DNA of 64,000 nucleotides from Datnioides undecimradiatus (lineage: Eukaryota; Chordata; Actinopteri; Lobotiformes; Datnioididae), in NCBI GenBank assembly GCA_008933995.1, contig WARS01000012.1, positions 7,821,001 through 7,885,000 of the forward strand. The letters run 5' to 3'. Every line of letters starts with the position of its first letter. Position 1 is the first letter of the stretch. This document shows positions 4,531 to 59,933 of this stretch, piece after piece. The position numbers and the translations under genes were made by a program. The notes under the pieces are model-generated. The model was not told the origin of the DNA, did no database searches, and saw nothing but the letters and a program-made list of their open reading frames with translations.

Positions 4531-7500
4531 CTGAAAAACACAAAAAAAGCCCCAGAGCTTTAATTTTAACAACAAGCTTAAATTAAAACAAAACATAAAA
4601 ACTTTATTGTAATGTCAATGGCTCATTGAAAAAAAAAACAAACCTATGCATGGTTGGAGACTTTGGAGTGTGGCTCCAGTCATCCATGCTCTTCATGCTA
4701 CTCATCTGTTGCAGCTTGGAGCTTAGCTCATTGATAATGCTGGCTTTCACGCCCGAAAGAGGTGAATGAAGTCTGCGTCCTTCCAAAATCATACTGTCTC
4801 TTTGCACTCCACCAAGGTCATGCTCGCTGATCTCAACCCAGCCCACAGACCGAGTATCCATGGGTCTCTCCAGGCAGGCAGCCAGAGCAGAGCTAAAGCC
4901 ATCCTCCATTTTGGATCTGCTCTGCTTGCGCTTCCTTTCATCTGCAAAGGATCCATCTAACCTAGCGTCTTCTTGGTTGCTTTGTCTGTGCAACTGTAAA
5001 GGAGCAGGGTTGGTGCTGTTCTGCCTACGTAGTGCTACAGTCGGACCCCTCCCTCCCCCCTCCTTGTAATGAGTCATCTTTGGAAACACAGGGTTTGCCA
5101 GTTTGGCGCTGTGCACCTCAAATGTTTGCCCACCTGAGTAGGTTGTGCAAGGATCCTGATGCTCACCCCCCCTCTCTCCCTCTCCTCCTCGTCCGTCTCC
5201 TCCAATCCCTCCCCGCTCTCCTCTTAGCCCACTCAATCCCAGCATTTCTAAATGGTGGTCACTACTGCTGTGACTGTCCAGCTCCTCAATCCCAGAGTCC
5301 ACCACAGCATCTTGCCAGTCTCCACTCTTGGGAATAATGGTTGGGTGGTGACTGTGGTCAGCAGCTTTACTCCCTGTGCTGAGGCCGGACTTGGGCCCTG
5401 CCGTGGTCATGCTATAGTCAGAGGATGACGGTGAGGTTGTGGTGGTTGAGGCAGCAGCAGAGGCTGTCATGGTAGTGGTAGCATAGGTCATGGTGGTGGT
5501 GAGGGTGGCTGTGCCTCTGTCTTGGGCCAGGGTGTGCCCACCTACTGACGAGTCATTAGAGCTGCTGTAATAGGGATGGGAATGGGACATGGGCTGAGGT
5601 CTGTGCAGTGATGTGGCAGGCAAAGCTGCTGTAGAGGTGGTGGTGGTGGTTGAAGAAGGGGGAAATATCTGTGGGGATGGGTAAGATGGAGAGAGAGCTG
5701 ACTGGGTAAGGTTGGCTACCTCGCTGTCGTAAGAGGTAAGGCTGGAGGCAGCAGAGTCACCACCCTGTGGAGAGGGTTGAGGAGCATTTGAGGGTTTGGT
5801 AGATGGAAGAGGGGGTGGAGGAGGTGGTGCAACTTCAGCAGACTGTTGACTTGGGTGTTGATGCTGCCGAGGAAAGTCTTGGACTCTTTCGTTCTTACCA
5901 TTAGCAAATTGCAATGGAGGGGGCAAGGGATCTGCAAAGACAAACTCATCATCTGCATCTATTGATGGAGCGGGTGGAGGGAGAACCATCAGTCCTAGAC
6001 CTCCACCTGCACCTGCTCTTGCTTCTTCCATAGCTTCAGGTGCCTGTGGTGGGGCTGTGGGGACAGTGTACTGAGGAATGTAGCTGGTGTGGGGAGTGCT
6101 TTCCATCTGCAAAAAGGAAGGTCTGCGGGGTGCAGGTTGAGTAGGCGGGGGAGGAGGCTGTATGGGTGGAGCAGGTCTGCTGTCATACATTTCTTTTTCT
6201 CTCTCTCTCTCCCTCGGGCTCTGTGGGTAATACTGTGTTGAATACTGATTAGTTCTGTCCTCTGAAAAGCGAACTCTAAGACCCTCCCTGGGTCCTCCCT
6301 CCTTTTCTCTCTCCAACCTTTCCCCACCTCCTCCTCCCAAGCGTAAAATCCTTGGTGACTGGGGCCGGCTCAGAGATGCAGGTGAGGTGGTGGCAGTTGG
6401 GGAGTTTAGGTGGAGTGACACTGGAGAGGTGTAAGCTGACTGGGTAGGGGTTGCAAAAAGGGAAGGAGTTGGGGTCTGAACAGGGGTAGGGAAAGCTCCC
6501 ACTGTGGACAGCTGCCGACCAAAGTGTCTCTCCTCTCTGCGCGTCCTGCGGTCATCCTTTAGGGCCCTCTCTCGTGCAGCTAGGGCCAGGCCAAGAGGGG
6601 ATGAGGGGTCCAAAACTTTCCCTGTGAGTGGATGGATGAAGGTAGTAGTGGGCTGGGTGCCATACATAGAGGGTGCTGATTTGGGTTGGCCATCCTGACT
6701 GAGGATAGGGGAGGAATACTCAGGCAGACCAAAGGCTGGGGGCATGCTGCTGGAATAATTGACGTAACTATCTCCAGAAAACATGCCCTCGTCTATAGAT
6801 TTAGAGGGCCGTAGACGAGGGGTGGGCACTTCCATTTGTGAGCCTTGTAAAGGCTGAATTCTTGCCCCTAGTGCCCCTCCTCCTTCCCCCGCTCCACCTC
6901 CTGCCTCTCCTTGAATGTCCTCCTCAGACGAGAGGAAGAAAGAAGCGCTCTTCCTTCTCATATCTCGGAAACGCTCCCTTTCTCTGCGTGCCCCTCCTGC
7001 TCCTTCACCAAAAGCTGTGCCAAATGTTGAAGTATAATCCAAGTTTTCCAAATTTTGTTGTGAAGAAACAGATGTGGCAACATTTGATGAAGGCAAAGAA
7101 GTGGATGTAGGGGGCTGAGGTGGTGAGGGGTTGAGTGGTGAGGGTAGATTGGTGTTAGGGATGTCTGTGGTTGTGTCTGCTGAGGTGTTGTCTTCTGCAT
7201 CGTTGGAGGGCTCAGCTTCCATGCTGCTCCCCTGGCTGCTTCGGCCGCTGCTGCTGGTAGAGGGTGCTTTAACAATGATGGTGGGGATAGGGATGGAGCT
7301 CTTTTCTTTGGCTGCACCTCCCTTTCCTCTGTGCTGTCTCAGCCCATCTTCTACTTTTGACTGCTTCATCAGGGCTCCTCGACCACCCCTCCTAGCTGCA
7401 CCCCTCCCAACCCCTCCACCCTGCTCCCTGTTGGCCATGTGTGGATGATGTTGTGGCGCTTGTTGGGCTTTAGGCTTAGCACTGGTCGGTGGTGTAGCAC

Positions 7501-10500
7501 TGCTGTAGCCTCTCCTTAACCCTCCCATCTTTCCACCACCTCTCCTGGGTGCTTCCGTTTCTCTTACACACAGTCCTTCTGATTGTCTCCGGAGGGTGGG
7601 GACCATGACCTGCTGGTTCATCCCACCAGGTCCTCCCCTCTCCCAGCCTGCTTGAGTAGGATGACCTGGCTGGGAGTGGAGTTGGTAATGGGCTTGAGAA
7701 ACAGGGGGTATGGGCATAGCAGGCCCTCTCACAGGATGAGGGCCTGCTGATAAAGGCGGATCTGGGGCGGATGTATTAGGGGGTGGGGGGATTTCTTCTG
7801 GACCTGGCACTGACAGGCTGCGAGCCAGCTTCATAGCAGGTGGGTGAAGATACTGCCTTTCCTCCTCTGTTACACCTGAGAACAACAACACAGACACTTA
7901 CAGACACTTAATAAACTCATATATTGAGGAGGCAGAAATCATTGCATGAAAATTGCCATTACCAATTGATTTTTGACGCATCATGACTGCATGCTGACCA
8001 TGGCCTGGTTGAAAATGAGCTTGGTTGTAGCCAAAACCTGGTCCGTGCTGCACCATACTCACAGAAGACTGCTGCTCGTAGGGTTGCTTAAGTCATCGAA
8101 ACACATTTTAAAATGGAGCAAAACAGAAATTGAAAGCAAGGATAAAGTAAAGAGAGGAGACATTTACTCAGATTTAATCAAGTCCAACTGATATTGATTT
8201 GATATATAGTACAAAACAGTCAGTCCAACTATTAGTGTGTCAGGCAATAGAGCAGAGATGAATGGACACAACCTGACTCACTCTTAAACAACACTGTTTT
8301 GGTGTAGGTGGTTCATTGTCAATCATTTTCTCTTAAGTGTGGTGAGGGCAGAGCTAAAAAAAAAAAAAAAGACACTAAAGACCAAGCTACATTATAGATA
8401 GGAATCTTGTTTTTTTGTTTGTTTTTGCTAGCATTAGTCACTTCCATGACTAAATATGTGATACACCCTAAAGCAGTGGAGAAGCTCTGTTATGTATTTG
8501 AATCTGATATGGTAGGGCCGGGAAACAAGTTGATGACTATTTATTATTTATTAATATTTTGCAAATTCAGGATTTGAGTCTAAAGAGCCAGCAAGACTCC
8601 AAGACATTGAAACAACCAAAACTAGGATCATTTCCTTCTAATTCCCAACTGTACCTCATTGGAGACATTTGGAACAATACTCTTGCTCCGGTCCCTCTTG
8701 CCTCCGTGACCCCTCTGGCCCTGGTTGTCTGATGTAATAGTGTGTTGGGCAGCAGCCAAGATTTCATCCAGTTTATCTAAAAAAAAAAGACCATGCAGGA
8801 GCAGAGCAGAAGAGGAAATGTAGAGAGGTGGTGAGAGGGAGCATAAAATAAAGGCAGAAACATAAAAGGGAGGATTTCAGTGAGCCCCCTCCGGTCCCCT
8901 CGAGGTTTAAAAACACCCTTTTACAGTATGACAAGAGCAGTGAGAGTGATTTCTTACTTAGTGCCATCTGATAGACTGTCCTCTTCTTATCAGGACCCTG
9001 AGATGAGTCGTATTCTGAAAAAAGGAGGAGAAAAAAGAGCATCAAACAGGCTGACTTTTAATTAAAGCTCAGGGGCTGATGGGGGTAATGATAAAGGCTG
9101 ATGTTCACCTGCTTTCTTTTTCCATGGAGAGGCAGCTGTAGCATACATAATTTGGGAAACAGAAATTAGGTGTGACTAGAACTGCTGTGTAGTCATGTGT
9201 ATTAAGCAGATGAAAGGATGAAGTACATACTCAGACACATGTGATGGTATGAATGCTGATGTGATGAGAGGGATGGCGATGGGGGACGGAAATGATAATG
9301 AGAGCACACAAATCCATGATTCTCCCACCTTTGTCCACTGTTTGCAGCAAATTTGGTTCAGAAGAAAAAGAAACAAAGAACAGTCTGTCACAGAGTGGCA
9401 TTAGAAAGTATCATTTCATGCAATGCCTTTATATTGATTAACTATTTAATTATCATCTTTCTTCTTCATAGGTAATATCAGTAGTGCAAATGAGTCAAAA
9501 TGCTACTTCCTATCAAACTATTGTCTTTGTGAATGAAATCACACCTCCAGTGGATAATTGTCTTGCCTGACTCCATCAGTGTGGTTAATATTTAATGCTT
9601 TGTTTATCTAATGGTGCCATGGTACTGAACCATCATCCTGCAGAGAAGCCTCTAGCCCTCCTCAAAAGCTTTTTTAAATGTACCCCCCCCCCGGAAAAAA
9701 ACTGAGGGGGACTCTAATCTAATTTATTTTTTACTTCCTTCCAAACCTACCCCTTCTTAATCTATACATTCAGCCCTTTGTCCCCTCTAGCATCTTACCC
9801 ATGTCTTCCAGCTCTGATGTCATTGACTTGGAGCGCAGGGCAATGGCAGGAGGAGTCAGCCTTTTAGTCTGCTGTGGGGCTGCTAAGGGAAGCCAGCCAA
9901 ATGCAGACTTAATGTTTAGTATCCTCATATAAACATGCATTCACCAATGTCTACACTGAAACAGGCTTTTAGGGCAAAGTAAACATGCAATCAGCTTTAT
10001 CGTCACATCATAAACATAGAATGGAATTGCCATACGAGGAAAATTTGATGCTTGCCTCTCTTCCGAGCAGTGTCCTCCAGTTCAGGGTTTCGAGCAACCA
10101 TCACAACTTTCACCATGAGACTGTTGCCGCCCTGTCGGATCATGTTGACCACCTGCCTGTGGCCAACCTTCACCACATTCTGACCATTCACCTGACACAA
10201 AGACAAAGAAATGCTAAATGGGCTGATATACATTTATATCCATTTAAATTAAACAATTAACATGTTACACAACACTTTTGTTACAAGAAATGGATACAAA
10301 AATTTACAGGTAACAAGGGTCTACTAGCGACCACCGATTCACCTAATGTAGCTTACTCATATTTAGTGTATAATATTAGAATTTTCTAAGATTTGGTTTT
10401 AAATGTTTTTTTTACAAAATTGTGCAGCATTTTGGATAAGTGCACCAGCAATTCAAGCAGCGACTACAGTAAATCAGAAAGACTGAAGCAGCTACATAAG

Positions 10501-21665: not shown

Positions 21666-24600
21666 GTTTATATTTGTTTTTTATTTAATTAAATCTAAAC
21701 CTAAAATCTGTAACTGTCCACTGGTACCTGATGAGACTCATCCCAGCCATTCTCATCCCTCGTCCCCAGCTTGGCCCTGTAGTACAGCAATGTCTCACAG
21801 CAGGAAGTGTCGCCCCCTGTCAGTACAGTGTGGTACAGTGGGGTCAAGCCACAGCGGTCTCTGTAGTTTGGAGAAGCTCCAAGAGACAAGAGAACCTGGC
21901 AAGACAAAAGGAAGGTGTTACTTATCAAATGTGTATATTTATATATGAAAAAGCTGAGAAAGAACATTTAATGCAGGATTGGCAAAGTCATTTCAAGGTC
22001 ATTAGAGACTTGAGTATGTTTGGATGTCTGCAACCGTAATTCAAAGGCCTTACCAGCAGCCCAGCGTGATTGTGAGCCCTGACAGCTTTGTGCAACGCTG
22101 TCAGGCCGTCTCTATTTCTAAAATCCAAATGAGCGCCGCCCTGAACCAGCACCCTGATGCCCTCCACCGGCAGGCCTGACTGCACGGCCAAAGAGAGCGG
22201 GGTCTCTAAGCCACAGATGAGGGAATGGGTCAGGGAGGATGGCAGTGAGAAGCAAAATCAACCCTTTAAATACTACAAATATAATATCATCACTTAATAA
22301 GACTTCAAAGAGTGAATCTATGTAAATCATGAATAACGTAATTTCCACAGAGAGGCGAAACACAGGGTTAACTCACCTCCAGTGTCAGGGTCATGAAAAT
22401 TTGGATCAAGACCCTTCTCAAGGACTTTTGCCATTTTATCTATTGTCCCAGTCTGAATGTAATCCAGGAACTTCTTCAGACTGGCCTGAGAGGGGTAGGA
22501 GAGGGATGAAACAGATAACAGTGAGTAGAAACAAATACTCCTCAGCAGCATGTTCATCAGATGTGAGGTGAAATACCTTGGTGCTGAGTTTGGAGAGAGC
22601 CTTTTCATCCAGATTTGTCTGTTTATAAACTCTGGTTTTGTACCTAAACTGAAGGCAAGAAAAAAAAAGATGTGTGAAAACTGTGATTCATCATACTGCA
22701 ACACACCTCAGTTTAACAGTTTATCTGTTTGTTCATTAGTGATAGTGCACATCGAAGAAATTACAGAAAGATTTGTATTTGTCTGCTTGTCAATCTGTGT
22801 TTTAGATGGTGTTTTACAGTCCGAACAATCTTTTTTTTTGAAGCAGATAAACAAAGCAGGTAATCGATTCAATGAACGCTGGCTTGAGCTTTTGGGGCAA
22901 ATAGTTAAATTTAGTTAAGTTCAGCATTGCAGCTTTAAAGCACAAACAGCACCATTACTCTTGTTAACTGCAGCTAAACTCTCACCCTATTTCCAGAAAT
23001 TTGCCCTCCCACTCAAAGTCTTTTTGGAACCGCTCCATGATATATGTCTTTAAGATATAATTATATGGACAGATTCACTGTTTGAACTAGACTGAAATGT
23101 GTGTGTGCAGGAGTATTTTGCCTTTTTTCATTTGATTGGGTAATAAATTTTGAAACTGTAATAACTGGTTTTTACCTGTTAATCAGTTCCTGATGATAAC
23201 AAAAAGATGTAAATATTTCATTTACTCATATTTGTCATGAAGCTTACCTTTATAGTTAATGAAAGTGCCTGTCAAGTCAATACATTTCTTTGTAAAAAAG
23301 CAAGTGAATTAATGGTGATTATTTATTTTAATGGTGATTAAATCTCTTTTACCAGCCAGATTCAGTATCTAGTGCAGTTTTTCTTTAACACCAGCCAGCA
23401 CTACATGTCCTTATAAGGCTACGTGCATCACAGGATCTGACATACTGTATAGTCCTACATTTCAAAATATTACTAACTCAAAGATAATATATTCTGACAG
23501 GCTATTTAAACACCTATATCATGGTAAAAGGTGACCAGAACCTAAAAAAAAAATGTTTAATGTAGAGTATTCCTACATGTGATTTAAAGTTTAGGAGCTT
23601 TTTGTTGCAGGAATAAAAATCTGGTGGTGAAATCATAAACTAAAATATGGTCTGGAGAACCAGCCTTGAGTCATAAACATCCTTCAACAGATGAGTAAAC
23701 CAAGTTCAGGTGGGTTTGCTTTCCACCTCCTCTTTGAATGGAAGACCACGTCAATGAACACTGAATGTGCTGTCTCCACATCAGTGCTGTTCTGTGACGG
23801 CAAGCAAACCATTTACAGACGGAGGAGTGTAGAGCTGAGAGGAGGAGTCTAAGCTCCCATCTAGCAGCTGATGGTTGAGCTGAACTGAACTACACACTGC
23901 ACCTCAGACCATCAGAGAGCAGCTATGTCAAGCATCAGAGATGCATTTAGCTAGGATAAAGAAACGTATCTGTCCAAATGCTTATAATAAAATAGATATA
24001 ACAGACTTATTAGAAAGTGATGTTCACACTGTGGGTTCACAGTAACAGTATCCAGAAACGACCCTATAACAGTGGATACTGTCGTTTAAGCACATACGTG
24101 ATTCAAGATGGCAGTACTCATGTTATAAATACATGCACTTATGGAGCAGTGAGATACATTCTGCTGTGGGGCAGAATTTAGTTACAAGGCCTCATCAGCA
24201 CACAGACATGTCCTCATCTGGAACCTTGACAAGAATGTAAATACCCTGGTTTGAAGCCAAACGCTGAGTGCAGGATACTCTTTCAGCCCCACCCAGTTCA
24301 TCAACATGTACAGCAGCTGGACCACCAGAGGGCACTGTGAGATAATTGTTTCACAGCATGACAACTTCACACTGATGTCGTCACACAGGCCACTTTTTTA
24401 AAGGTGGAGAAATGTCATTTCGTTTGCATGTTACTTGATGTAAGCTATGCTTGGTGGATACTATGTTTTTCAAGATTTGTTTACAATGTATTAACTGAAT
24501 GTGGCATGCCAATTAAAAAAAAATAAATCTGAGTGATTTATCTGATCAACTGTAGAACATCCACTGTAGTTTTTACTTAGTTTTGAGCACTTGAATTTTG

Positions 24601-27209: not shown

Positions 27210-29533
27210 AGAAAAATATTGAGTGGCTACTAATCCCTGGGAGAGAAGTGTAATGTAATGTACACTGTATATTACGGTGACACTTTGTTCTGTTTCTTAC
27301 AATCAAGGATTATCTGATATCTTTGTGGCACTCCTTGTCTGCAGTCAGGAGGGTTATTTAGACCCTCACTGTGCAGTATTATGGTTGATATAAATGCATA
27401 TATCTTCTTCTTTGCTTATTCATATTCCATTTCTCTTCATAGGATTCATTTCCTCTCTCGGTCTCTTTAACAAGCTCCTACATTCACCCCCTCTCTTCAT
27501 CTCTCTATTTAATTCAGCTCAATAACATTTCAGCTGCAAGGTTCAGGGGTGCGGCGTGTTTGTCAGTGGTGTGCAGAGCTGAATATGACGCCTGTGGCTG
27601 AGACCTAGGAGCATCACAGATGCCTTCTACATATTCCTTCCTTTCCAGAGTCACTCACTTCCCCAGCTCTCCCCAAACTCATTAAAAACCTATTAGATAA
27701 TTAGCAATTACTGTTATATTGAGGGCAGATTAGCTGACATGTAGAACAATTGGCATGTTCGGGGAGTTGAAAATGGAGAAAGGAAGATGGAGGAGGGGTT
27801 ACAGTGGGGCACCCGTTCTCACCTGGATATGGCGTGTGTAGGCTGGCCAATTCTCACCTGCCACCACCATACAGCTGAGAGCTGCTGTAAGTGTGAATTG
27901 ATACTAACTTCAGTTTTGGAAACTCATTATGACCATAACTGACCCCCGGCAGATGCTTACATGGTGTTGTTGACTGAATATGATTATGCCCTAGACTGCT
28001 GCTCAACACAAGTCCTACTTCCTTCAGGGACTAATCCCTGGGCTTGTGGGATAACTGGAGTTAAAATGTTTTGAAATAAGAGATGTGCTTGTACAGTTTT
28101 GCATACTATTTGGCTAATGTAAAAAAATGTATGCATCAAGTACCCATGGGTTCTTCTCCGCAACTAATTTAAAACAGATGTAGAGTCATCACCGCCGCAG
28201 AAATACAGTTTTAGTTCAGGGATGCAAGACAATTTTTGCCAGAGGGGAGACAATTTTGGATCCTTTCAGCTCCCACCAGGAAATTCAGAGCAAGCTTAAG
28301 AACAAAGAGAAAGTCAGGATAGAAAAACAGAGGATGAACACATATACTTGCTAAGGGATGTCACATGGGAAAAGTGTGGGCCAGAACCCTGTCGAGCTTA
28401 TGTTCTTACCTAATCTCTTTTTACTAGTGTTTGAAACATTGTCAAAAATCTATTTACCAGCGTATATTTTGGAATTCATTTGACACAGATTAAGCACAAC
28501 TGATGAACCCTGCCTTTACAAAAGTGATCTCACTGTAACAGCTTTAGTTATGTCTGTGCTTGCACCAAAATCAGAATCAGTAAAGGTTACATAAGCCAAA
28601 TGCCTGACTGCCTGAACATCGTAAAGTAGCCCAAACTATTATTTTTTAAATTCTGTTTGTCGGATTAAAGCTGTCTCTCTCTGAGGCAGTAATACCAGAG
28701 AGACTTGGCTTGAACTACTTCCTCATTTGGAAAGACCTCAAGTGCCCTCTTTGCAAGGGAAACTTATTTTTACATAGATTACCAGACTTTAAAATGTTTG
28801 CTTGTGACAGTCCATTCCTCTAAATTTTAGATATGAGAAAATGATCTGTGTGCTGCATTTATTTTGTGTCTGCCTCGACTTTTCTGATTTTTTTTTTTAT
28901 AGAGCCAAATCACTTTCAAATTAGGGATCAAGAAGAACCTGGGTTTGTTTCACGTGTAGGTGTTTGTGACATGTTTGAACAGTGTTTGTCCATACTGATG
29001 AGAACATGCACCTACTGTTTGTTTGATGTCAGGAATTCCAATGCGGAACACCATCATGGTCAGGAAAGTGTCCTCCAGCGGGGCCACTGTGGTCATGCTG
29101 CGCTCCATGAGAGCTCGTCTCTTCTGCAGCGCATTCAGGCCCGGGTGATGAGGCTGCTGATTGGCCGCGATGAGATGATGCTGTTGCTTATTGGCCAGTT
29201 GATGATGTAGCGGGGCTTGATTTGTCATGTATGTCATACCCCGGTTGCCCAGGTTACCCGGCCTCAGCGGTCGGTCTGCTCTCTGTCTACCGACCACAAT
29301 GGCTGCTGGTTTCACCACCTCGCCACCTTTCCCTTCCCAGGATTGTCGTCCTCCCGTCATTTCCTTCTCCTCCAGACCCTCTAACCCTCCATTCTCCGTG
29401 TCACGTCCACCTTCCCCTTTTCTGTTTTCTCCTCCCTGCTCCTCTTCCTCCTCCTCATCCTCCCCATCTTTGTCATCCTGACCGGGATAAAAGTGCTCGT
29501 TATTTCCCAGCATCCTTTGCGGTGCAGGGGTCA
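3630..29533 (-). CDS. shank1: SH3 and multiple ankyrin repeat domains protein 1 (Shank1), 24 coding exons
   Basis: Postsynaptic-density master scaffold that links receptor-adaptor complexes to Homer and the actin cytoskeleton. Exons in transcript order: 29513-29016, 25266-25063, 22648-22577, 22485-22377, 22205-22054, 21895-21728, 20645-20529, 20424-20347, 20255-20189, 19946-19771, 19618-19488, 18388-18249, 17713-17600, 17036-16958, 11868-11786, 11614-11490, 10191-10056, 9882-9799, 9135-9109, 9014-8958, 8776-8655, 8086-7963, 7875-4644, 4530-3630. They sum to 6996 nt (2331 residues plus stop) with every junction in phase. Domains: SPN ~153-258, ankyrin ~259-488, SH3 ~603-667, PDZ ~703-805, proline-rich to ~2030, SAM 2266-2331. 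Human SHANK1 is about 2160 residues, so this is slightly long. SHANK1 rather than SHANK2/3 is favoured by SKSIDEGMF, the PPAMKxxRSLSVPG stretch, DPLPPPLQFAN and the nearby VGLUT1 gene. Splice sites were set by eye; the two least certain are the start of exon 22 and the 5' end. Confidence 0.95.
4644..7875 (-). CDS. shank1: shank1 giant proline-rich exon
   Basis: A single 3232-nt exon that stays open throughout and encodes about 1077 residues. Giant penultimate exons of this kind are a hallmark of the SHANK genes. It opens with the PPAMK..RSLSVPG segment, followed by basic/Gly-rich and Ser-rich stretches, the IPIPTIIVKAPSTSSSGRSS block, SKSIDEGMF, FIHPLTGKVLDPSSP and LGLALAARERALK. A PPxxF Homer EVH1 ligand (PPLQF) lies at 5906-5920. 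Long Thr/Ser/Ala runs occur around 5400-5700 and several poly-proline runs around 5800-6200 could bind SH3 proteins. Near its end is the conserved SIINELSSKLQQM block. Donor is AG|gtttgt at 4643; acceptor is ctcag at 7876. Confidence 0.95.
7963..9882 (-). CDS. shank1: shank1 linker exons 18-22 between PDZ and proline-rich region
   Basis: Five small exons in transcript order: 9882-9799 (APQQTKRL, then LRSKSMTSELEDM), 9135-9109 (a 27-nt microexon encoding ASPWKKK), 9014-8958 (KKRTVYQMAL), 8776-8655 (KLDEILAAAQHTI) and 8086-7963 (ending RQKSIG). Every block matches the SHANK1 linker in order, and all phases join. The acceptor of exon 18 is a NAGNAG (minus strand ttagcag), so the exon may begin at 9882 or 9879, adding or dropping one codon. 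The start of the 8086-7963 exon uses a pyrimidine-poor acceptor and is the least certain boundary. The introns at 8087-8654 and 9136-9798 hold nothing else I can recognise. Confidence 0.88.
10056..11868 (-). CDS. shank1: shank1 PDZ domain exons
   Basis: Three exons, 11868-11786, 11614-11490 and 10191-10056, encode a complete class I PDZ domain at about residues 703-805. The carboxylate-binding loop is GFGF (residues 720-723). It is followed by the SHANK-specific long beta2-beta3 loop, IEEFTPTPAFPALQYLESVD, and then GDFLIEVNGQNVVKVGH, where the last His matches the alpha-B His that selects Ser/Thr at ligand position -2. In the family this domain binds the C-terminus of SAPAP/GKAP. The last of the three exons ends in a GC donor (AG|GCAAGC on the minus strand), forced by the reading frame. 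The 1.3-kb intron 10192-11489 contains no other exon that I can see. Confidence 0.95.
15121..15144. repeat. GA/CT inverted repeat within a CpG-containing purine/pyrimidine patch
   Basis: Two perfectly complementary 11-base arms (GGAGAGAGAGA and its complement) are separated by AA. It lies inside a patch that alternates GA-rich and CT-rich stretches, including several CGs around 15180-15190. It could form a hairpin or, through the polypurine runs, a triplex. Function is unknown. Confidence 0.7.
16744..16840. repeat. degenerate copy of a common teleost interspersed repeat
   Basis: The run CCATCTATTTTCTAAACTGC, then TGTTCAGGGTTGCGAGGG, then TTGTCCCAACATACGTTGGC follows the layout of a repeat found throughout teleost genomes (tail-like CCATTTTCTA..CCGCTT, GGGTCGCGGGG, CCTATCCCAGC). 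I recognise the pattern but cannot assign the family name with certainty. It is heavily diverged and lies in a shank1 intron. Confidence 0.55.
16958..18388 (-). CDS. shank1: shank1 SH3 domain exons
   Basis: Exons 18388-18249, 17713-17600 and 17036-16958. The SH3 domain is read from MYSAVPGRVYVA, through LSLSKGDKVKVLSVGEGGYW, to GRTGWFPSDCVEEV, about residues 603-667. The third exon is a basic linker (SEKAKRKLFRNVTVGAYDG) that leads into the PDZ domain. The start of the first exon was chosen at a strong pyrimidine-tract acceptor (ctcggtag) because the nearer CAG at 18378 breaks the frame. The introns at 17037-17599, 17714-18248 and 18389-19487 look AT-rich and empty. Confidence 0.92.
19488..19946 (-). 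CDS. shank1: shank1 linker exons between ankyrin repeats and SH3
   Basis: Exons 19946-19771 and 19618-19488. The first encodes VPFLESPKYVPKRK and the LLRANSD block; the second encodes a Ser/Arg-rich stretch (RTRTRSPSRGR, then RHRQPRGR) that matches the SHANK1 linker. The first ends in phase 0 and the second in phase 2, completing a Gly codon with the next exon. The Arg/Ser character suggests a phosphorylated, disordered linker. Confidence 0.9.
20189..22485 (-). CDS. shank1: shank1 ankyrin-repeat exons
   Basis: Six exons in transcript order: 22485-22377, 22205-22054, 21895-21728, 20645-20529, 20424-20347, 20255-20189. They encode about 230 residues of ankyrin repeats, for example GLDPNFHDPDTGETPLSLAV, GAHLDFRNRDGLTALHKAV, GASPNYRDRCGLTPLYHTVL, DENGWDESHQACQNG, NASGNTALHISALYN and GANKEAKNKHGQTPFQ. 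In the family this block folds onto the SPN domain and binds cytoskeletal partners. The 20645-20529 exon ends in a GC donor (AAG|GCAAGT on the minus strand). Intron 20646-21727 carries a GATA microsatellite. Confidence 0.95.
21609..21665. repeat. (GATA)n microsatellite
   Basis: About 14 uninterrupted TAGA/GATA units inside a shank1 intron, ending about 62 bp from the ankyrin exon that starts at 21728. Likely length-polymorphic. Confidence 0.97.
22577..25266 (-). CDS. shank1: shank1 SPN-domain exons
   Basis: Exons 25266-25063 (68 codons) and 22648-22577 (24 codons), both phase 0 to phase 0. The protein reads RCLQFDLDSTVWNAKQQIIC, then YNYGLFQPAGDGRDAKFLEE, then DYSQSFEKGVPYLE, then FRYKTRVYKQTNLDEKALSK. 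This is the ubiquitin-like Shank/ProSAP N-terminal domain, which in the family binds active Ras/Rap GTPases and packs against the ankyrin repeats. The 2.4-kb intron 22649-25062 and the 3.7-kb intron 25267-29015 contain no further exon that I can find. Confidence 0.94.
26992..27205. repeat. two (TG)n arrays in shank1 intron 1
   Basis: Pure TG runs at about 26992-27041 and 27151-27205 are separated by about 110 bp that is itself rich in TGTG and TGCATGCATA patterns. Alternating purine-pyrimidine runs of this length can adopt Z-DNA. Probably one ancestral array split by point changes. Confidence 0.95.
29016..29533 (-). CDS. shank1: shank1 first coding exon (acidic N-terminus and start of SPN)
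   Basis: Ends in DTFLTMMVFRIGIPDIKQT followed by gtaggt, the exact point where SHANK1 continues with the SPN domain. I take the start as the ATG at 29511-29513 (MLGNNEHFYPGQDDKDGE), giving 166 residues in this exon. Upstream, a good splice acceptor (ccctctctgcag on the minus strand) ends at 29534, so the exon itself probably starts at 29533 and part of the 5' UTR lies in an upstream exon. The N-terminus is very acidic (a run of Glu near residue 25), then His/Gln-rich; it does not resemble the mammalian N-terminus. Confidence 0.85.
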
Positions 29534-31972
29534 CTGCAGAGAGGGCTGAGTGACATAGCTGTCATGGAGACAAAACATGGCTATCCCATGAGACTGGCTT
29601 CATCCTTAGAAACATGCTGTGGGAAACAGGCAGAGAAGGGAGTAAACTTGGTCATTTAGTTCTCAACACTTCATTGGTAGAGTGACTTCAGATATGCAAA
29701 GAGACACGTGCAATAATAGAGAAACTAGCCACCGGCAATGCTAATAAGTCCACATGTGTGAATGAGCACAGAGCTGGTCCACATTTTCCATTTAGCCACT
29801 GGGAATGCATCGGGGAATAGCAGGCTGATGAAAGACAGGCTATATATAAACTCTGTGAATTTGCATCACAGGTTCTTTGCAGAAGAGAGTGAGCTGGAGA
29901 TGCAATTTAGTTTCACACAAGGTCAAGATCATTGCTACTTTTGTGGTAATGGAGCTGACCTATGTCTGAGGCACAACCCAGGGCTAACAGCTAAATGTGA
30001 GCTCCTTAAAGGAAAATTCCACCCTCAGACACTTGAACACTACTACACATTGTCAGTCAACAGTTGTTCGATGTGATGCAGGTATTTTTTTGTGTTGTGG
30101 TGTGATTGAACTACACACTGTCCCTCCGCCTGCCTCGCTGACATGGCTCAGTGATGTGACACTGACAAACTCTGGAAACATGCCCAAACTTGTTGCGCAA
30201 AGTGCAACAGTGCACTTACATTGGACATTGTGAGAGCAACATGACTGCCGGTAAATCAGGTTTATGTGTACAAGCAAGGTAGTAGATTTGCAATACAAAA
30301 TGAGGTATATGCTTTGATTGCTGCTGTGTCAATATTTCCCGCATGCTGCAGTGATTTTTCTTACTCCCCTTAAGCACACACTCACCTAATGTTCTACTTA
30401 TTAAAGTATCAACTGTGTTTCTCATTGCTTTAAAGATCCTATGAGTCACCCACGGCCTGTTACACAACTTCCAGGCTTTTTCAACGGGCATGGATACCAT
30501 TAAATGAACAGATTATCTGAATATCATCAGTCCACTCTGAGGCCATCTTTGGGCTTTTTAGTTTCACCCATCAAAGGTGATAATTCCCAGATAACTTAGA
30601 AAACCCTCCAGTTCACATCTAAGTCACATCTAAGAAAACAGGTATTTGCTCAGTGGGCAGTTGTTGTCGTGCCTTGAGAATATTCGAAAATCAATTTAAT
30701 GTGAAGCCTGACGCCAAAGTCTAAGAGTCCAGCAAAGAAAAGTCATGCCCCTTAATTTAAACCCAACGAGTGTAGTGGCTACATAGCGGTCTGGTCTGCT
30801 GAGGGCTCTTTGAGTAGAAAAAGTGCTTTATGTGAAATGGATTTCTTCCTTCGTGAATAAAGTCTACAAAGAGTACCTTGCTCTTTGATCCTGAGGGACT
30901 GACATCAATACATGATCTTCACTTTTGATGGTTTAGATAGCTGAAACTTTTCATGAAAAATATCTTGCTGGGAGACGTACATACGTAAGAACAAAATCGA
31001 CCTACAGATACAGCTTGCATCACCAGCAGCTATGTGAAAACAGTCTCAGGGTGGATTTTTGCTTTAAGATTGTTTCATTGCTTCACTGTGTTTCAGATTT
31101 GGCATACTGGCGCCTCCATATGTTCTGCCCTGGTTTTTCTGTGGTGAAGTCTGGCTAAAGGGGCTTTGCCATCATGCAGATCTGGATTATTGCCAACAGC
31201 CGTTTTAATGATGGTGAATGACGCAGGGAATCTCCCACTGTCTCATTGGCGGTTTGGTGCTCTGAATATCATATGAGTTGGGAGTCTGAAATAGATGGGT
31301 ATCAGAACGCTCAGATGGACAGATGGAACTCAATAAAACATCACAAGAGACGATGGAGACACAACTCAAATTAGAACACAGATCTAAACTCACTCAATCA
31401 CAGATTACCAACATGCAGATAAAGAGTCAATTGGTTATTGATCATATATGTAGAAAACATGGTGTTAATGGAGGTTAAAGGGGCATTAAGTGATCTATGA
31501 CTTTTGACTTATCAACCTCTATCGGTGACCAAGGACATCGACAGGTGTCTGGCACAGCTTACAGTGGCCTGTAATTGACATAGATAATAACGTAGAGATG
31601 AAGAAGCTAGCTGATAGCAGAGATCCAACAAATACATTTGATTAAGCTGCACTGAGTAAATGTGAAAGCAAAACAGTGCAAAACAAGAGCTTTGCTTTGA
31701 GAATTAAGTAAAGAGCCAGGTTCAGGATTTTGGTTATGGGTTAAGGCAACCCTTCTGGCTTATGACCCCTTAAAACAAAGCAATACCTGATATCAACCCC
31801 TCAACATTGTTTGTGTATGTCTAAGAGTTTCAATCTGTTTACAAAAATCACAAAAGCAAACATTAGACAAATGACAAATGAAAACTAAAATGACCTTTGG
31901 GTCGCAGGAATACATTTTTTCCTTAGAAATTAGTTTGCCCACATCAACTTTCGAGACAACCATCTTTTAAAT

Positions 31973-45680: not shown

Positions 45681-47692
45681 ATGAGGACAGGAAAACATCT
45701 GCTGCTCCTGGCAGGTAAGAGGGGACCAGTGAAACATGAAAGGGCTGCTGCCAGGGTTTAAGGTTTGTTGGTATGTTTTCAGTATTACAACTCTAACTCT
45801 ACTATTGCAACTAGTTCTGTCATGTATTCAATCACGAGCTACTCCCAACACTGCCAAAATATACTAAAATCTCTTACATTTAGCTGAATTTTATGAAATA
45901 GCATTATTTAACAACAATTTGTTAACAATTTAACAGTTCTGTAAAAGTTTTGCCTATATAAAAATCACCACTGTCTTCTTTAGAAAGCCACTTAGTCATC
46001 ACTCTAGCGTTGATGTAACGATAATAAATAGATCATTATGAGAGAGGAACAGGGTGTTGTTTCCATCTTTGAAAAATTATTAAACTAATACTTAAAAAAT
46101 ATTAAAATAAAAAATGTAGATTTATCTTAAATAATGGAAATGAACAGCTGGAAAGAAAATTTTGTATAATATTTTTTTTTTGTATAATTTAAAATGCAAT
46201 GAATTCTGCAGTCATGTATGTAGTGGGAAAGATCTGCAGGCCAAATCAATAAAAAAAAGTATTTTGATAGAATTAAAGAATAAGGCACAAATTAAAATAA
46301 AATAACACTTATTTAAGGTAATAAGCAGTTAATATGATGTATATACATACACATACCATGCATGCATATTTATTTATTTATGAGGATACGGTATTGACTT
46401 TAAGAACAAAAACAAAATGCACAAAAACAATTAACAAAATGTTTGTCTCAAAATGTTGACTGCACTTTTGTCTTCTTTTTTTTTTGCATTTTGATCAAAA
46501 TGCAAAAAATAAATAAAATAAATACCTCTTACCCACTGGTAAACCATTTTGTGTCGAAATTGAATATGATTGATAAATTCTAAGATGATGCTTAGATATT
46601 TATTTCTTATCTATTTATTATATCGTTAGGCCACTACAGAGGACTTAAAACTTGACTTACCCCTGAAAGACGCTAAACCCAAATATTGTCACATTTGCTG
46701 TCACTGCACAGCATGTAAGACTTTAGTTCTGCAGAATGGAATGCAATGGTTTGGCGTAATGTAACAGTTTAATTATATAATCCTTCCTTAATTTTATAAC
46801 CAAACAAGCCATAATCGTTGTGTTATGACTCTACAGGTGATATCCTGCATATTTAAGAGAAATTAAGAAAAAAGCAGACTCAGAGAGACAACAGTGAAAT
46901 TAGTCTCTTCGCTCGTCATCTATTTTCTTCACAGATTCACTACAAAAAACGTCTATATTTATTCTTTACCTCTCACTTTATAAAAGTGAAAGGTAAAATA
47001 TTTTTACTTACTTCAATATTACTATTTGACCGAACGGCGAAGCTCTCCGTTTACCAGTCAAGCTACGTTCCACTCCTCACCTAGGATCACGAGCTGACGG
47101 TAGTGACCGAAAGCACAAGATCGTGAATACAAACGGCCGAAATGAGCTTTCTCCGGGTGGCTGGGCTCAGCCCCAGAGATAGGGTGGGGGACACAGACAT
47201 GGAACTCAGAGTGGAGCCACCGCTGAGGTGGTCTCCCTAGGGAAGTATTCCAGGTATGAGGGAAATCCCGAGGCAGACCCAGGACACGCTGGAGAGACTA
47301 AATCTCTCGGCTGGCCAGGGAACTCCTTGGTATCCTTCGGTGGACGGTGGAAGTGGCATGTGGGGTGGGGGTGGGGTGTCAATATTACTTCAGTTTGAAT
47401 ACAGACAACTGTGTAGCAGTGACAGATAGTGTGGCTAAAGGGAGAATATAAATTGGCACCACCCACAGAAACTTTAACTTCATTACCTGAAAATCCCCCA
47501 GAAAAGTACATTCTGCAAATCATCATTTGAATATTGACTAAAATAGTGAGTGAAATGTTCTGATTAAAATGGGCAGAGACTAATATAAACAGATTATTAT
47601 GAGTCTTGAAAGAGAGTTTATTAAAAAATAACATTTGTTGAATTTTCTTACAGCGGTCGTGCATTTGGCAAGATCTCAGCAAAAACCAGAAG
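45681..47692 (+). CDS. split signal-peptide exons of the Fc-receptor-like gene
   Basis: Exon 1 (45681-45714) encodes MRTGKHLLLLA and ends G|gtaaga. Exon 2 (47654-47692, 39 nt) follows a cttacag acceptor and encodes AVVHLARSQQKPE. Joined, they give a basic n-region, a hydrophobic core and a likely cleavage near Ala/Ser before Gln. The 1.94-kb intron between them contains a dead retrotransposon fragment at 47029-47375. Intron 2 (47693-48048) is empty. Confidence 0.82.
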
Positions 47693-50600
47693 GTAATCAG
47701 CACCTTTGCTCTGCTGTCTTTACTGCTACTCGTCAGCAATGGTTGAAAAAGTATTCAGATCCTATTAATAATACCTCACTGCAAAAATACTTCACTTGAA
47801 ATATAAAAAGTAAAAAGAAATGGAAATACTCACGTCCCTCAAATCCATCCTTAAGCAAAGTGCTTGCGTGAATGTCCTTAATTACATTTCACTGCTGCTT
47901 CTCCTTGGTGGGAAATGTCCACAGGTGGCAGCAATAACCATGTACAACAGCCCTCTGTACTGCAAATAATAGCTGATAATAGCAATAATAGCAAATAATG
48001 ACTTTATGTCTTTAATGTCTTTTTCCTCTTTGTCCACTGCTTCTTCAGTTTCTGTGACACCCAAAAAGCTGATCTACAACGGGGACATAGTTTACTTGAG
48101 CTGTAACAACACCTCAAATACGGACAGCGTTAAATGGTATTTCAATGATACTTTAAAGCTGGAGAACAACACCTGGAAGATAGTAGGTGCAAGCCACAAT
48201 AACTCAGGCTCTTATCGATGTGAGAGCAGTGGGCAAAAAAGTGACCCTCTCGTCATCGACGTCTTGGGTAAATGTACCACATGACCATGAGTATCTGAGT
48301 CCAAAATCCCCAAAGTGTAAGTAGAGACACACTATACATACAAATAATGGTATCATTTTTTTTTTATCATACAGCATGCCTTCCCAGAGCCTCACTCACC
48401 ATCAAAACGGGCCAGCCGGTGATGCGGCCTGGAGGTTCAGTTATCCTGGAGCTTGAGAATAACAACGGTCTGCTGGGATGGAAATGCTGGGTCTTAAGGG
48501 AACATCAGAAGAAGAGGATTAAGTTGAAGGTGAACAACGAGAGCATTAGTCTGGCCTTTCAATCCAGACACCTGCTCGTTCCAGAGACCATTTTCTGGTG
48601 TACTGATAGAGATGAGGACACAAGAAGTAATCAGATCATAGTCAGGACCTCAGGTAGGCTGACTGCATTTAACATTTGTGTGATTACATGTTACCTATTC
48701 ATTCAGTTTACAGAAGTGTACAGTATTTCATCACTTTTGAAATGGATATGGCAACCTTGTTAGCAAACTATTTCATATTTAAATATCCAGTACGTACAGG
48801 GCAATATGAACACTCATTAAGAGTCAGACTTTGGCCACCTGGCAAACAAATGTCCAATACATGCTGAATCTCTTTCAGCTCTGTTTCTGGTCCCTGTAAA
48901 CTCCTGAAGGAAATATCTAGCTCTTTAGCTGCTGTGTCATTTAAAACTATATCTAATCATAATCTTCTTCTTGTAGAGAAAGACATATCAATGGAGATGT
49001 ATCCTCTGCCTGCTGTAGCTGGGCAGAGTCTGGTTTTGAGGTGCCTCGTCTGGGGCACGGATCAGATTACCCACACTGTTTTCTACAAAGATGGTAAACT
49101 AATTGATACAGCTCAAACGACTACCTATGAAGTCACTAATGTGACAGAATCTGCGCAGGGGAATTATAAATGTGATGCCAAATTCACTTACAAGGCCCGC
49201 ACTGATGGACCTCCATACCATATGGCCTCTGATAGTCAACATCTGTTTGTTAAAGGTATGAATATCCAATGGGTTTATCTAGCTCTGATACTGTATGTTT
49301 TACACATGCATTGTTTTTAAATGCATCTCCTCTTGTGTTCTTTTTTCAGGGCCTCTGATGCAGGCGTTTATCTCAGAAAACATTGGCTTATCATGCTCTT
49401 GCCCAGGGTGTCCCAGTGACATCTCTTATCATTGGTACTACAAGACTGATGATCAACAGCCATGGGAGTCAGTCAAGTCCAGCCAAGAAATCATGATGCC
49501 AAAGGAGAGAGGCACATATGTATGTTACGGTTTGTGGGCCAAAGGGCGGTCACTTCCCAGCCGCAGTTATGTGTGTGAGTTCCTGCTTTTGTTTTGGACT
49601 TTGACTTTGTTTCTTGACGTACTGATACACATTAAGATCACTTTTATGCCTGAAAGCACTGAGTCACAACATCTTACAAACAGCTTTATGGAGTTTGAAA
49701 GATGTAGGCACGTACCAGTCAGGAATGGTCTAACAAATAAAGCTAGAGCCAGTATTTCAGTCTTTGCTAATACTTGAGACTAAAAGTCTGGATATCTCTG
49801 CACCTGCTACATCAAATATTACCACTCTTTTTAATACCACACTTGTTAGCCACCAACTATATTAAAATTAAATTGCTGGAGTTGCCTTTTAGTTTAAATT
49901 ATTTTTTTAATCAATGCAACTTCAGTCTGCTAACAGATTACTTGGCCTGTTATTTGTCACGTTTATTTCATATCAAGGTGCTGGCGGCCAGATCTCTTTT
50001 ATACTGCCAAATGTTAACAAGAATTCAGCTAAAACGACTTTTCCTAAGGTCGCAGGAATTTCATACAGTCATGACAAGATGTATTTTCTGTCTCTGTTTC
50101 AGATAAACCACCGATCCAAGTCATTCTCATACTTGTGGGGGTCATCTTGCTGGTGATTCTATGTTTAGCAGCTGCCATATTCTATTTTTGCTATAAGAGA
50201 AGAAATTCCACAGGTGAGTAACTCACTACTTGTTTTCCATTTTATGCATGAACACTTGAGGCATCTCATGGCACTTTATGTTCTTTAGGACCAGTATACG
50301 AGGATGTGGGACTGAGGTCCTTAGACAAAGGTGATGACAAATATGAGAAGCTACGGAAGCCACCCGGTGCTCAAAGGGAGGGCGAGTACGATACCCTTCA
50401 TCCAGAGGCAGCAGGTCAAGAGAAGAAAGAGGGTGACTATCAGAAGCTAAAGAAAGAGGGAATGACAGAGGGAGTGTATCACACACTGGGGATGGAGGGT
50501 GCAGGTGGAGGAGCGGGGGGATATGAGGCACTGAAGAAAGAGGGAATGAGAGAGGGGGTGTACCACACCCTGGGGACAGAGGGTGCAGGTGGAGGAGCGG

Positions 50601-50818
50601 GGGGATATGAGGCACTGAAGAAAGAGGGAATGAGAGAGGGGGTGTACCATACCCTGGGGACGGAGGGTGCAGGTGGAGAAGCAGGGGGATATGAACCACT
50701 CAAGAAAGAGGGAATGGCAGAGGGGGTGTACCACACCCTGGGAATGGAGGGTACAGGTGGAGGAGTAGTAGGGAAGGACAAAGACACAAAAATTGAGATA
50801 CTGGAAGAAAAGATGTAG
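45681..50818 (+). CDS. Fc-receptor-like immunoglobulin-superfamily receptor with multi-ITAM-like tail
   Basis: Eight coding exons: 45681-45714, 47654-47692, 48049-48267, 48375-48653, 48977-49255, 49350-49574, 50103-50213, 50289-50818. They total 1716 nt (571 residues plus stop), and every internal junction is phase 1, the usual rule for Ig-domain genes. Order: signal peptide split over two exons (a trait of Fc-receptor genes), four Ig-like domains, one transmembrane helix, cytoplasmic tail. D1 (KWYFNDT, NNSGSYRCESSGQKSDPL) and D3 (SLVLRCLVWG, VFYKDGK, GNYKCDA) match D1 and D2 of mammalian Fc-gamma receptors. Five or so N-glycosylation sequons. The transmembrane segment has no charged residue, so no adaptor dependence is expected. 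The tail has 11 tyrosines, ten in YxxL. Start ATG has A at -3. A fish FcR/FCRL family member; ligand and orthologue unknown. Candidate poly(A) signals at 51578 and 51593. Confidence 0.87.
47029..47375 (+). mobile_element. non-LTR retrotransposon fragment (dead)
   Basis: The stretch reads, with stops and gaps, like the C-terminal end of a LINE reverse-transcriptase protein that is abundant in teleost genomes: HELTVVTES, AEMSFLRVAGLS, RDRV, LRVEPP, then a remnant matching PRGRPRTRW..LSRLAWE. An in-frame TGA near 47126 and an internal deletion near 47218 make it non-functional. It is in the same orientation as the host gene, within its first intron. GC content is clearly above the flanks. Family name uncertain. 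Confidence 0.7.
48049..48267 (+). CDS. Ig-like domain D1 exon
   Basis: Encodes VSVTPKKLIYNGDIVYLSCN through GSYRCESSGQKSDPLVIDVL. Canonical B-strand and F-strand cysteines (LSC and YRC) with the Trp of WYF between them. The SDPL..V ending is typical of Fc-receptor first domains. Three N-x-S/T sequons. Phase 1 at both ends. Confidence 0.88.
48375..48653 (+). CDS. Ig-like domain D2 exon with non-canonical cysteines
   Basis: Encodes ACLPRASLTIKTGQPVMRPG through FWCTDRDEDTRSNQIIV. The F-strand Cys (FWC) is present, but the B-strand position reads VILELEN, where Leu replaces Cys. A different Cys appears in GWKCW around the C strand. The overall pattern (ASLTI, GGSV, GW, RSNQI) is that of fish FCRL second domains. 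Disulfide pairing must differ from the usual. Confidence 0.85.
48977..49255 (+). CDS. Ig-like domain D3 exon
   Basis: Encodes EKDISMEMYPLPAVAGQSLV through the VTNVTESAQGNYKC region to SDSQHLFVK. Canonical cysteines (LRC and YKC). LVLRCLVWG and VFYKDGKLI closely follow the second domain of mammalian Fc-gamma receptors (LRCHAW, LYYRNGKA), the domain that contacts IgG there. Confidence 0.88.
49350..49574 (+). CDS. Ig-like domain D4 exon
   Basis: Encodes GPLMQAFISENIGLSCSC through ERGTYVCYGLWAKGRSLPSR. Canonical cysteines (LSC and YVC) plus an extra pair in CSCPGC. It is short (about 75 residues), consistent with a C2-type membrane-proximal domain. Ends phase 1 before the transmembrane exon. Confidence 0.84.
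50103..50213 (+). CDS. transmembrane exon of the Fc-receptor-like gene
   Basis: Encodes a short stalk (YKPPIQ), a hydrophobic run of about 24 residues (VILILVGVILLVILCLAAAI then FYFC) and a basic stop-transfer YKRR. No Asp, Glu, Lys, Arg or His lies within the helix. Confidence 0.9.
50289..50818 (+). CDS. cytoplasmic tail exon with tandem ITAM-like repeats
   Basis: One 530-nt exon encoding 176 residues plus the stop TAG. Tyrosine motifs in order: YEDV, YEKL, YDTL, YQKL, YHTL, YEAL, YHTL, YEAL, YHTL, YEPL, YHTL. Spacers between consecutive YxxL motifs are 9 or 11 residues within the repeat block, and 11 between YEKL and YDTL, inside the 6-12 range of ITAMs. No motif has the hydrophobic or Ser residue at -2 that an ITIM needs. 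The rest is Lys/Glu/Gly-rich and looks disordered. The two minus-strand frames across it are shadows. Confidence 0.88.
50438..50773. repeat. in-frame 84-bp tandem repeat (4 units)
   Basis: Units begin at 50438, 50522, 50606 and 50690, each exactly 84 bp, 28 codons. The consensus runs YEALKKEGMREGVYHTLG followed by a Gly-rich spacer of 10 residues. The two middle units are nearly identical at DNA level, which suggests recent unequal exchange or slippage. Each unit adds two YxxL motifs. Confidence 0.95.
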
Positions 50819-51620
50819 AGGAAAGTCTGAGCAAAAGAAAAGTTGCTTTAATACCTTTAATACAGAGATTTTAAAAAATACATTTCCTACAAAAAGAGTC
50901 AGGTGACAGTTAAGTCACAGTCCTGAATATGAATTTCTATGATTAGACATCAAAAGTTTTTAGTGGTGTATGGGGAAATGTGTAGAACTTAACTTGAGTA
51001 ACAAAAGCCAAATTTGGTTTTTTTTCTAAAGGCAAGACTACCAAATAACACATTTAAAAAGTGCCTGTATATCACACCAGGCAAATCTAAGATGTTAGCT
51101 ATGCTGAATATCCTGGAAGTAAATGTAAATATGTTAGTTCGTCTTTAATTTCTTTGACTGTCTCATAATACATTATTCCCACAACTTTCATAATACATTT
51201 ATTCATTTAACTCACTCAAACTTTTTTCTTACTTGTAAACTGTATTGGGTGCTTGAACAAACTATTAAAATCTGCTTACAGTGGCAGGGGAAAGGTGCAT
51301 AAATTGACTTATTAGAAAAAACAAACTGCTTATGCTTCTTTGTGAAGTCATGCACTGCACTTTTGCACTTTTTTACAGAGACAGTCTCATGATTTGATTT
51401 TTGTGTCTTAAACTGTTTTTATTTTGCTAATACTTTGTTTTTATTTGTAAACATAAAAAAGTGTAATACTATACAGATTGTATTTTTGAAGTACTTTTAT
51501 CCTTAGCTTAAGCTGATCCACAATCTGCTTAATTTGCAGCATGTTAAGAGAAAGCTTTTTTGTATTTTATATGCTGAAATAAAGCAATTTTAAATAAATT
51601 TGGTTGGTTTGTTTTTGTAA
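50819..51620 (+). other. 3' UTR of the Fc-receptor-like gene with poly(A) signals
   Basis: AT-rich non-coding sequence after the stop codon. Two AATAAA hexamers at 51578-51583 and 51593-51598 make cleavage near 51610-51620 likely, giving a 3' UTR of about 800 nt. Confidence 0.65.

Positions 51621-54967: not shown

Positions 54968-59933
<4,966 letters not shown>

Follow-up and report, generated by a model that had tools for sequence, protein, structure and literature searches.

A putative Fc-receptor-like gene of Datnioides undecimradiatus with an in-frame tandem array of ITAM-like units in its cytoplasmic tail

Introduction

It is not settled why certain immune receptors require multiple ITAMs. 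According to the available passages of a 2025 review, data on a specific mechanism for ITAM multiplicity in the TCR have been lacking (PMC12058738), and the abstract of a mouse zeta chain study (PMC4428620) states that having several ITAMs amplifies TCR signalling and matters for certain T-cell fates. A tandem array found in the genome of the fish Datnioides undecimradiatus, in a stretch of 64,000 nucleotides that was analysed as a whole (the window), may bear on this question: could the tail of a single Fc-receptor-like chain be built from a repeated signalling unit? An earlier note, made from the sequence of the window alone, had read the array as an immune receptor tail made of an exact minisatellite of ITAM-like units. 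Here we describe the gene, the array and its motifs, and we weigh the functions that the tail might serve.

Gene model and receptor identity

The gene model has eight exons and 1716 nt including the stop codon, and it encodes 571 residues with no internal stop (Table 1). All internal exon joins are in phase 1, and the six internal exons are bounded by AG and GT sites. Exon 1, kept as a candidate only, is the weakest part of the model; it had the top donor match (5/6) among the 25 candidates listed and was not the most hydrophobic of them.

Table 1. Features of the Fc-receptor-like gene, in window positions
Feature	Position	Strand	Basis
Exon 1, candidate, signal peptide MRTGKHLLLLA	45681..45714	+	upstream scan; phase 1 join onward
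Second signal-peptide / N-terminal exon, 39 nt, ...VVHLARSQQKPE	47654..47692	+	AG/GT, phase 1 at both ends
D1, Ig-like, Fc receptor D1 type	48049..48267	+	PDB Fc epsilon RI alpha, query residues 9-86
D2, presumed Ig-like	48375..48653	+	without Pfam match
D3, Ig-like, counterpart of domain 2 of Fc epsilon RI alpha in the alignment	48977..49255	+	Pfam Ig_2 2.4e-7, above cut-off
D4, Ig-like, weak	49350..49574	+	Pfam Ig_2 3.8e-4, under cut-off
Transmembrane exon	50103..50213	+	translation; hydrophobicity judged by eye
Terminal exon, cytoplasmic tail, 530 nt, stop TAG	50289..50818	+	AG acceptor, phase 1, stop
Diverged fifth unit, YEKL-x11-YDTL + 13-residue linker	50342..50437	+	protein shuffles; DNA support mixed
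Unit 1, YQKL-x9-YHTL	50438..50521	+	Tandem Repeats Finder and unit table
Unit 2, YEAL-x9-YHTL	50522..50605	+	Tandem Repeats Finder and unit table
Unit 3, YEAL-x9-YHTL	50606..50689	+	Tandem Repeats Finder and unit table
Unit 4, YEPL-x9-YHTL	50690..50773	+	Tandem Repeats Finder and unit table
ATTAAA polyadenylation-type signal	51264		
Two AATAAA polyadenylation-type signals	51578..51598	+	

Comparison of the joined ectodomain with the PDB placed Fc epsilon RI alpha (9.2e-14) and FCRL5 (2.3e-10) at the top, with weaker scores for CEACAM and LILRB2 entries, among the best 60 of 114 matches. The signal for FcR-type Ig domains comes from D1 and D3, which align with domains 1 and 2 of Fc epsilon RI alpha, respectively, and is weak in D2 and D4; the Pfam match of D1 (Ig_4, 1.8e-6) is under the curated cut-off. 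The phase 1 joins found throughout the model are the rule applied for FcR-like genes in Xenopus, as described in passages of PMC2413239. The same passages give 30 and 21 bp as the sizes of the signal-peptide exons in mammalian FCRL1-6, Fc gamma RI, FCRLB and a fraction of the Xenopus genes; here the two exons measure 34 (candidate exon 1) and 39 nt and differ from these sizes. A charged membrane residue, as expected of adaptor-dependent activating receptors, was not seen by eye in the translation of the hydrophobic membrane segment, IQVILILVGVILLVILCLAAAIFYFCY, which thus gives no hint that the receptor depends on an adaptor; activating FcRs are described in the available text as pairing with subunits that carry the ITAM, for example FcR gamma (PMC2413239). 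The ectodomain, the phase 1 exons and a signal peptide apparently spread across two exons are likenesses to the Fc receptor/FCRL family, and the earlier proposal of an Fc-receptor-type immune receptor is borne out by the ectodomain matches and the membrane segment. On sequence grounds it is sound to regard the gene as encoding an Fc-receptor-like, type I membrane receptor. A G6f-like identity was also considered and was set aside on tail architecture only. In D2, the first Ig cysteine is seemingly replaced, as judged by eye, though this domain is flanked by FcR-type domains.

An 84-bp coding array in the terminal exon

The array lies at 50438-50773, wholly inside the terminal exon, and consists of four head-to-tail units of 84 bp with no indels, all sharing the exon's reading frame, as the unit table confirms. 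Tandem Repeats Finder reported it at 50450-50765 with a period of 84, 3.8 copies, 91% matches and 0% indels. Each unit of 28 residues reads YxxL-x9-YxxL followed by an 11-residue Gly-rich linker, which gives eight YxxL across the four units, in agreement with the earlier description; stops are present in frames +1 and +2. The word exact, used for this minisatellite in the earlier note, applies to the length of the units and not to their sequence: the six pairwise DNA identities are 86.9, 84.5, 79.8, 95.2, 83.3 and 83.3%. Units 2 and 3 differ at only 4 of 84 bases (95.2%), the remaining pairs showing 79.8-86.9% identity, so that the central units are indeed almost identical. This similarity supports the notion that they might result from a recent expansion or contraction.

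The motifs were also compared with chance. Two of the four units were shuffled and read circularly, and YxxL-x6-12-YxxL occurred in 210/200000 and 187/200000 shuffles. The DNA pattern TAY-N6-YT-N28-TAY-N6-YT occurs six times in the window, with an expectation of 2.66, and six or more were obtained in 8/100 shuffles; four of the six matches are the array units, at exact 84-base steps. Taken alone, the motif count is therefore weak evidence, and the evidence for the array is its periodicity. The 84-bp array is real and non-random.

The 96-base segment directly upstream of unit 1 is a diverged fifth unit. Its protein alignment score against each of the four units was reached by 0/3000 shuffles, and its DNA alignment score by 0/3000 shuffles against units 2 and 3 and by 32 and 36/3000 against units 1 and 4. 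Both of its YxxL are kept despite the divergence. The eight YxxL of the earlier note are thus correct for the four-unit array, and the tail as a whole has ten, plus a YEDV. The Tyr-to-Tyr steps along the tail are 10, 15, 15, 17, 13, 15, 13, 15, 13, 15 and 13 residues, the first step leading from the membrane-proximal Tyr to YEDV.

In Pfam, the tail had only matches under the cut-off (for example ribosomal L18A, with 20.7 bits against 22.9 curated). The PDB gave no match to the whole tail at E<=1 and none, at E<=10, to a 51-residue stretch covering two unit types. Among the viral contigs scanned with the tail, 13 pattern matches and no relatives were found.

Signalling motifs and possible function of the tail

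In every second YxxL of the units, His occupies the Y+1 position, which is unusual in an ITAM and counts against an activating reading. The broad definition of the ITAM, YxxL/I-x6-12-YxxL/I, as given in passages of PMC3528668, has eight matches in the tail, with spacers of 9 and 11. The strict consensus, with a spacing of x6-8 according to the available text of PMC12058738, has none in the tail, and this also counts against activation. The term ITAM-like, used for the units in the earlier note, is therefore valid under the broad spacing and fails under the strict one, as the spacer within the units is 9. Moreover, the x11 spacer between units fits the broad ITAM too, so that the array need not be four fixed ITAMs, and "four ITAMs" is just one register of it. 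The Pfam ITAM model PF02189 had no match in the whole genome, but it also matched in 0/14 control genomes; it did not appear among the matches listed for the tail, or among those of three unit types and the fifth unit when these were scanned singly.

In our view the gene probably encodes a single-copy, self-signalling activating Fc-receptor-like receptor whose tail docks several Syk-family kinases. Provided that the gene is expressed and that its product meets a ligand, clustering by this ligand would lead Src-family kinases to phosphorylate the YxxL tyrosines, and phosphorylated neighbouring pairs would engage both SH2 domains of Syk/ZAP-70. A tandem-SH2 kinase may bind at any two neighbouring YxxL, with x9 or x11 between them, and a flexible tail rich in Gly could hold four to five kinases per chain, with a maximum of five on ten motifs. 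Several docked kinases per chain would give higher gain and avidity. Signalling by a receptor through an ITAM that it carries itself has a working precedent in fish, G6f-like: the available passages describe a molecule with four Ig-like domains, one membrane segment and an ITAM of its own, which signals via this tail ITAM and requires both of its tyrosines (PMC3528668).

The spacers of 9 and 11, which exceed the strict ITAM spacing, might instead indicate an inhibitory or dual receptor, whose YxxL would recruit the SH2 phosphatases SHP-1/2 or serve as a sink (inhibitory ITAM). Passages of PMC4016189 describe ITIMs as overrepresented in FCRL molecules, and catfish IpLITR 1.1b has been proposed to recruit Syk via tandem ITIMs (PMC4810170, available text). 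Nevertheless, the tail has no match to the ITIM pattern [ILVS]xYxx[LVI], the residue at -2 of the ten YxxL and of YEDV being Gly, Asp or Pro, and we regard an inhibitory or dual function as unlikely.

Possible selection on the repeat units

The composition of the array might also suggest a neutral coding minisatellite, in which G-rich slippage would have multiplied an ordinary Gly-rich segment, the number of motifs being meaningless and only the frame selected. The + strand of the array has a G fraction of 0.45 with seven G2-type runs (and no stricter G3 quadruplex-type runs), and 34 of its 112 residues are Gly. Against this, dN/dS between units (Nei-Gojobori) is well below 1 in all six pairs, ranging from 0.10 to 0.37, and the Tyr and Leu of the eight array YxxL are conserved at 16/16 residues. 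The four units differ at 22 variable columns, distributed 4, 6 and 12 over the three codon positions; numbers are small in each class of codon columns, with 2 synonymous and 0 replacement changes at Tyr/Leu (n=4), 2 and 2 at the inner motif positions (n=4), 1 and 1 in the 9-residue spacer (n=9), and 2 and 5 in the linker (n=11). The invariance of Tyr/Leu beside a variable linker, together with the retention of both YxxL in the diverged fifth unit, makes a purely neutral origin quite improbable. A broken, unexpressed or wrongly joined gene is, for its part, very improbable: exon 1 is uncertain and D2 and D4 match poorly, but the six internal exons have AG/GT sites, the last exon has its AG and stop, and every join is in phase 1 over 571 codons without a stop.

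Under the activating reading that we favour, the array could have gained copies of the 28-codon unit, with the frame kept, through unequal exchange or slippage. The copy number of the minisatellite, if variable among alleles or species, would then set signalling gain, and a length polymorphism would tune immune activation; we consider this extension possible though doubtful. In principle, the number of repeats could determine how strongly the receptor signals, and natural alleles, if existing, would allow ITAM dose to be studied at near-constant motif sequence.

Comparison with known systems

A period of whole codons and near-identical central units are features shared with other coding minisatellites; the units of these are typically structural or mucin repeats, whereas the unit found here is a signalling motif. 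CD3 zeta (CD247), an adaptor without the Ig ectodomain of the Fc-receptor-like gene, resembles it in having several tandem YxxL pairs per chain. According to the available passages of PMC12058738, zeta contains three ITAMs with the x6-8 consensus, other ITAM subunits having one each, in contrast to the four near-identical units in one exon described here. FCRL1, a member of the FCRL family, is described as carrying two ITAMs within its cytoplasmic domain (PMC12981233, available text), against an array of near-identical units in the fish gene, a comparison made by description only. Xenopus FcR-like tails are reported, in passages of PMC2413239, to have one to three YxxL/I/V, against ten YxxL here, and to be encoded on one to five exons; a one-exon tail is therefore not new per se. 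G6f-like, also compared by description from passages of PMC3528668, differs by one ITAM over two exons and a YxN site. Catfish LITR are likewise fish immunoregulatory Ig-type receptors that use tyrosine-based tails or adaptors; the passages available describe a multigene family with adaptor chains and ITIM tails, and no minisatellite (PMC4810170). The fish Fc receptors of flounder and largemouth bass are presented, in the accessible text, as two-domain membrane or soluble forms. In limited searches of the open-access literature, covering titles, abstracts and passages, no vertebrate Fc receptor tail built in this way was found, in line with the earlier note. Within that scope, the new feature is that ITAM-like units of an FcR-like receptor form a minisatellite inside one exon.

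Paralogue searches and genomic context

The fish's own genome (581 Mb) was searched with each of the domains D1 to D4, with membrane plus tail and with the unit, the match counts being lower bounds. The unit (E<=0.001) had four matches listed and the membrane plus tail (E<=10) three, all in the Fc-receptor-like gene itself. At E<=1, D1 had at least 14 matches, at least 13 of them elsewhere (best E 0.015), and D3 at least 27, at least 26 of them elsewhere (the top-scoring with 35% identity, E 1.9e-4). For D2 and D4, one weak outside match each was listed, that of D2 having E=0.34 and a stop. No similar tail was seen by eye in the open + frames of 39 outside loci inspected for at least three Yxx[LIV], each spanning at most ~3.2 kb so that farther exons would be missed, nor on both strands of two further stretches of 5 and 8 kb inspected for at least two Yxx[LIV]. 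Judged by the searches with D2, D4, membrane plus tail, and the unit, which gave no significant match elsewhere, the gene seems to be single-copy in this genome.

Most of the outside D3 matches listed (20/26) fall in a cluster of Ig-type receptor exons on contig C5, at about 1.82-2.06 and 2.71-2.74 Mb (loci L006-L013, L015-L021, L026-L029 and L031), with D3 identities of 28-41%, highest over short stretches; we presume that this cluster resembles fish FcR-like/LITR genes. On contig C463, within 10594001-10602000 (L050), the minus strand carries an exon resembling FcR domain 2, which we take to read like FCRLB. The small contigs C379 and C396 have D3 matches of equal score on opposite strands and may therefore be haplotype copies.

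The neighbours of the Fc-receptor-like gene in the window are a SHANK1-like gene and a vesicular glutamate transporter-like gene. For the former, in the region 3633-29561 on the minus strand, the PDZ frame 11466-11969 matches Shank1 (1.4e-36). The long frame 4607-7897 and the frames 22330-22707 and 28953-29561 resemble further SHANK parts by eye only; none of the three had a Pfam match, and the last had no PDB match. The transporter-like exon, at 57893-58297 on the minus strand, matches VGLUT2 (4.1e-18), and its whole frame had no match in Pfam. We assume that these SHANK1 and VGLUT neighbours recall the synteny of human 19q13.33, which lies closer to the leukocyte receptor complex than to the FcR locus at 1q23.
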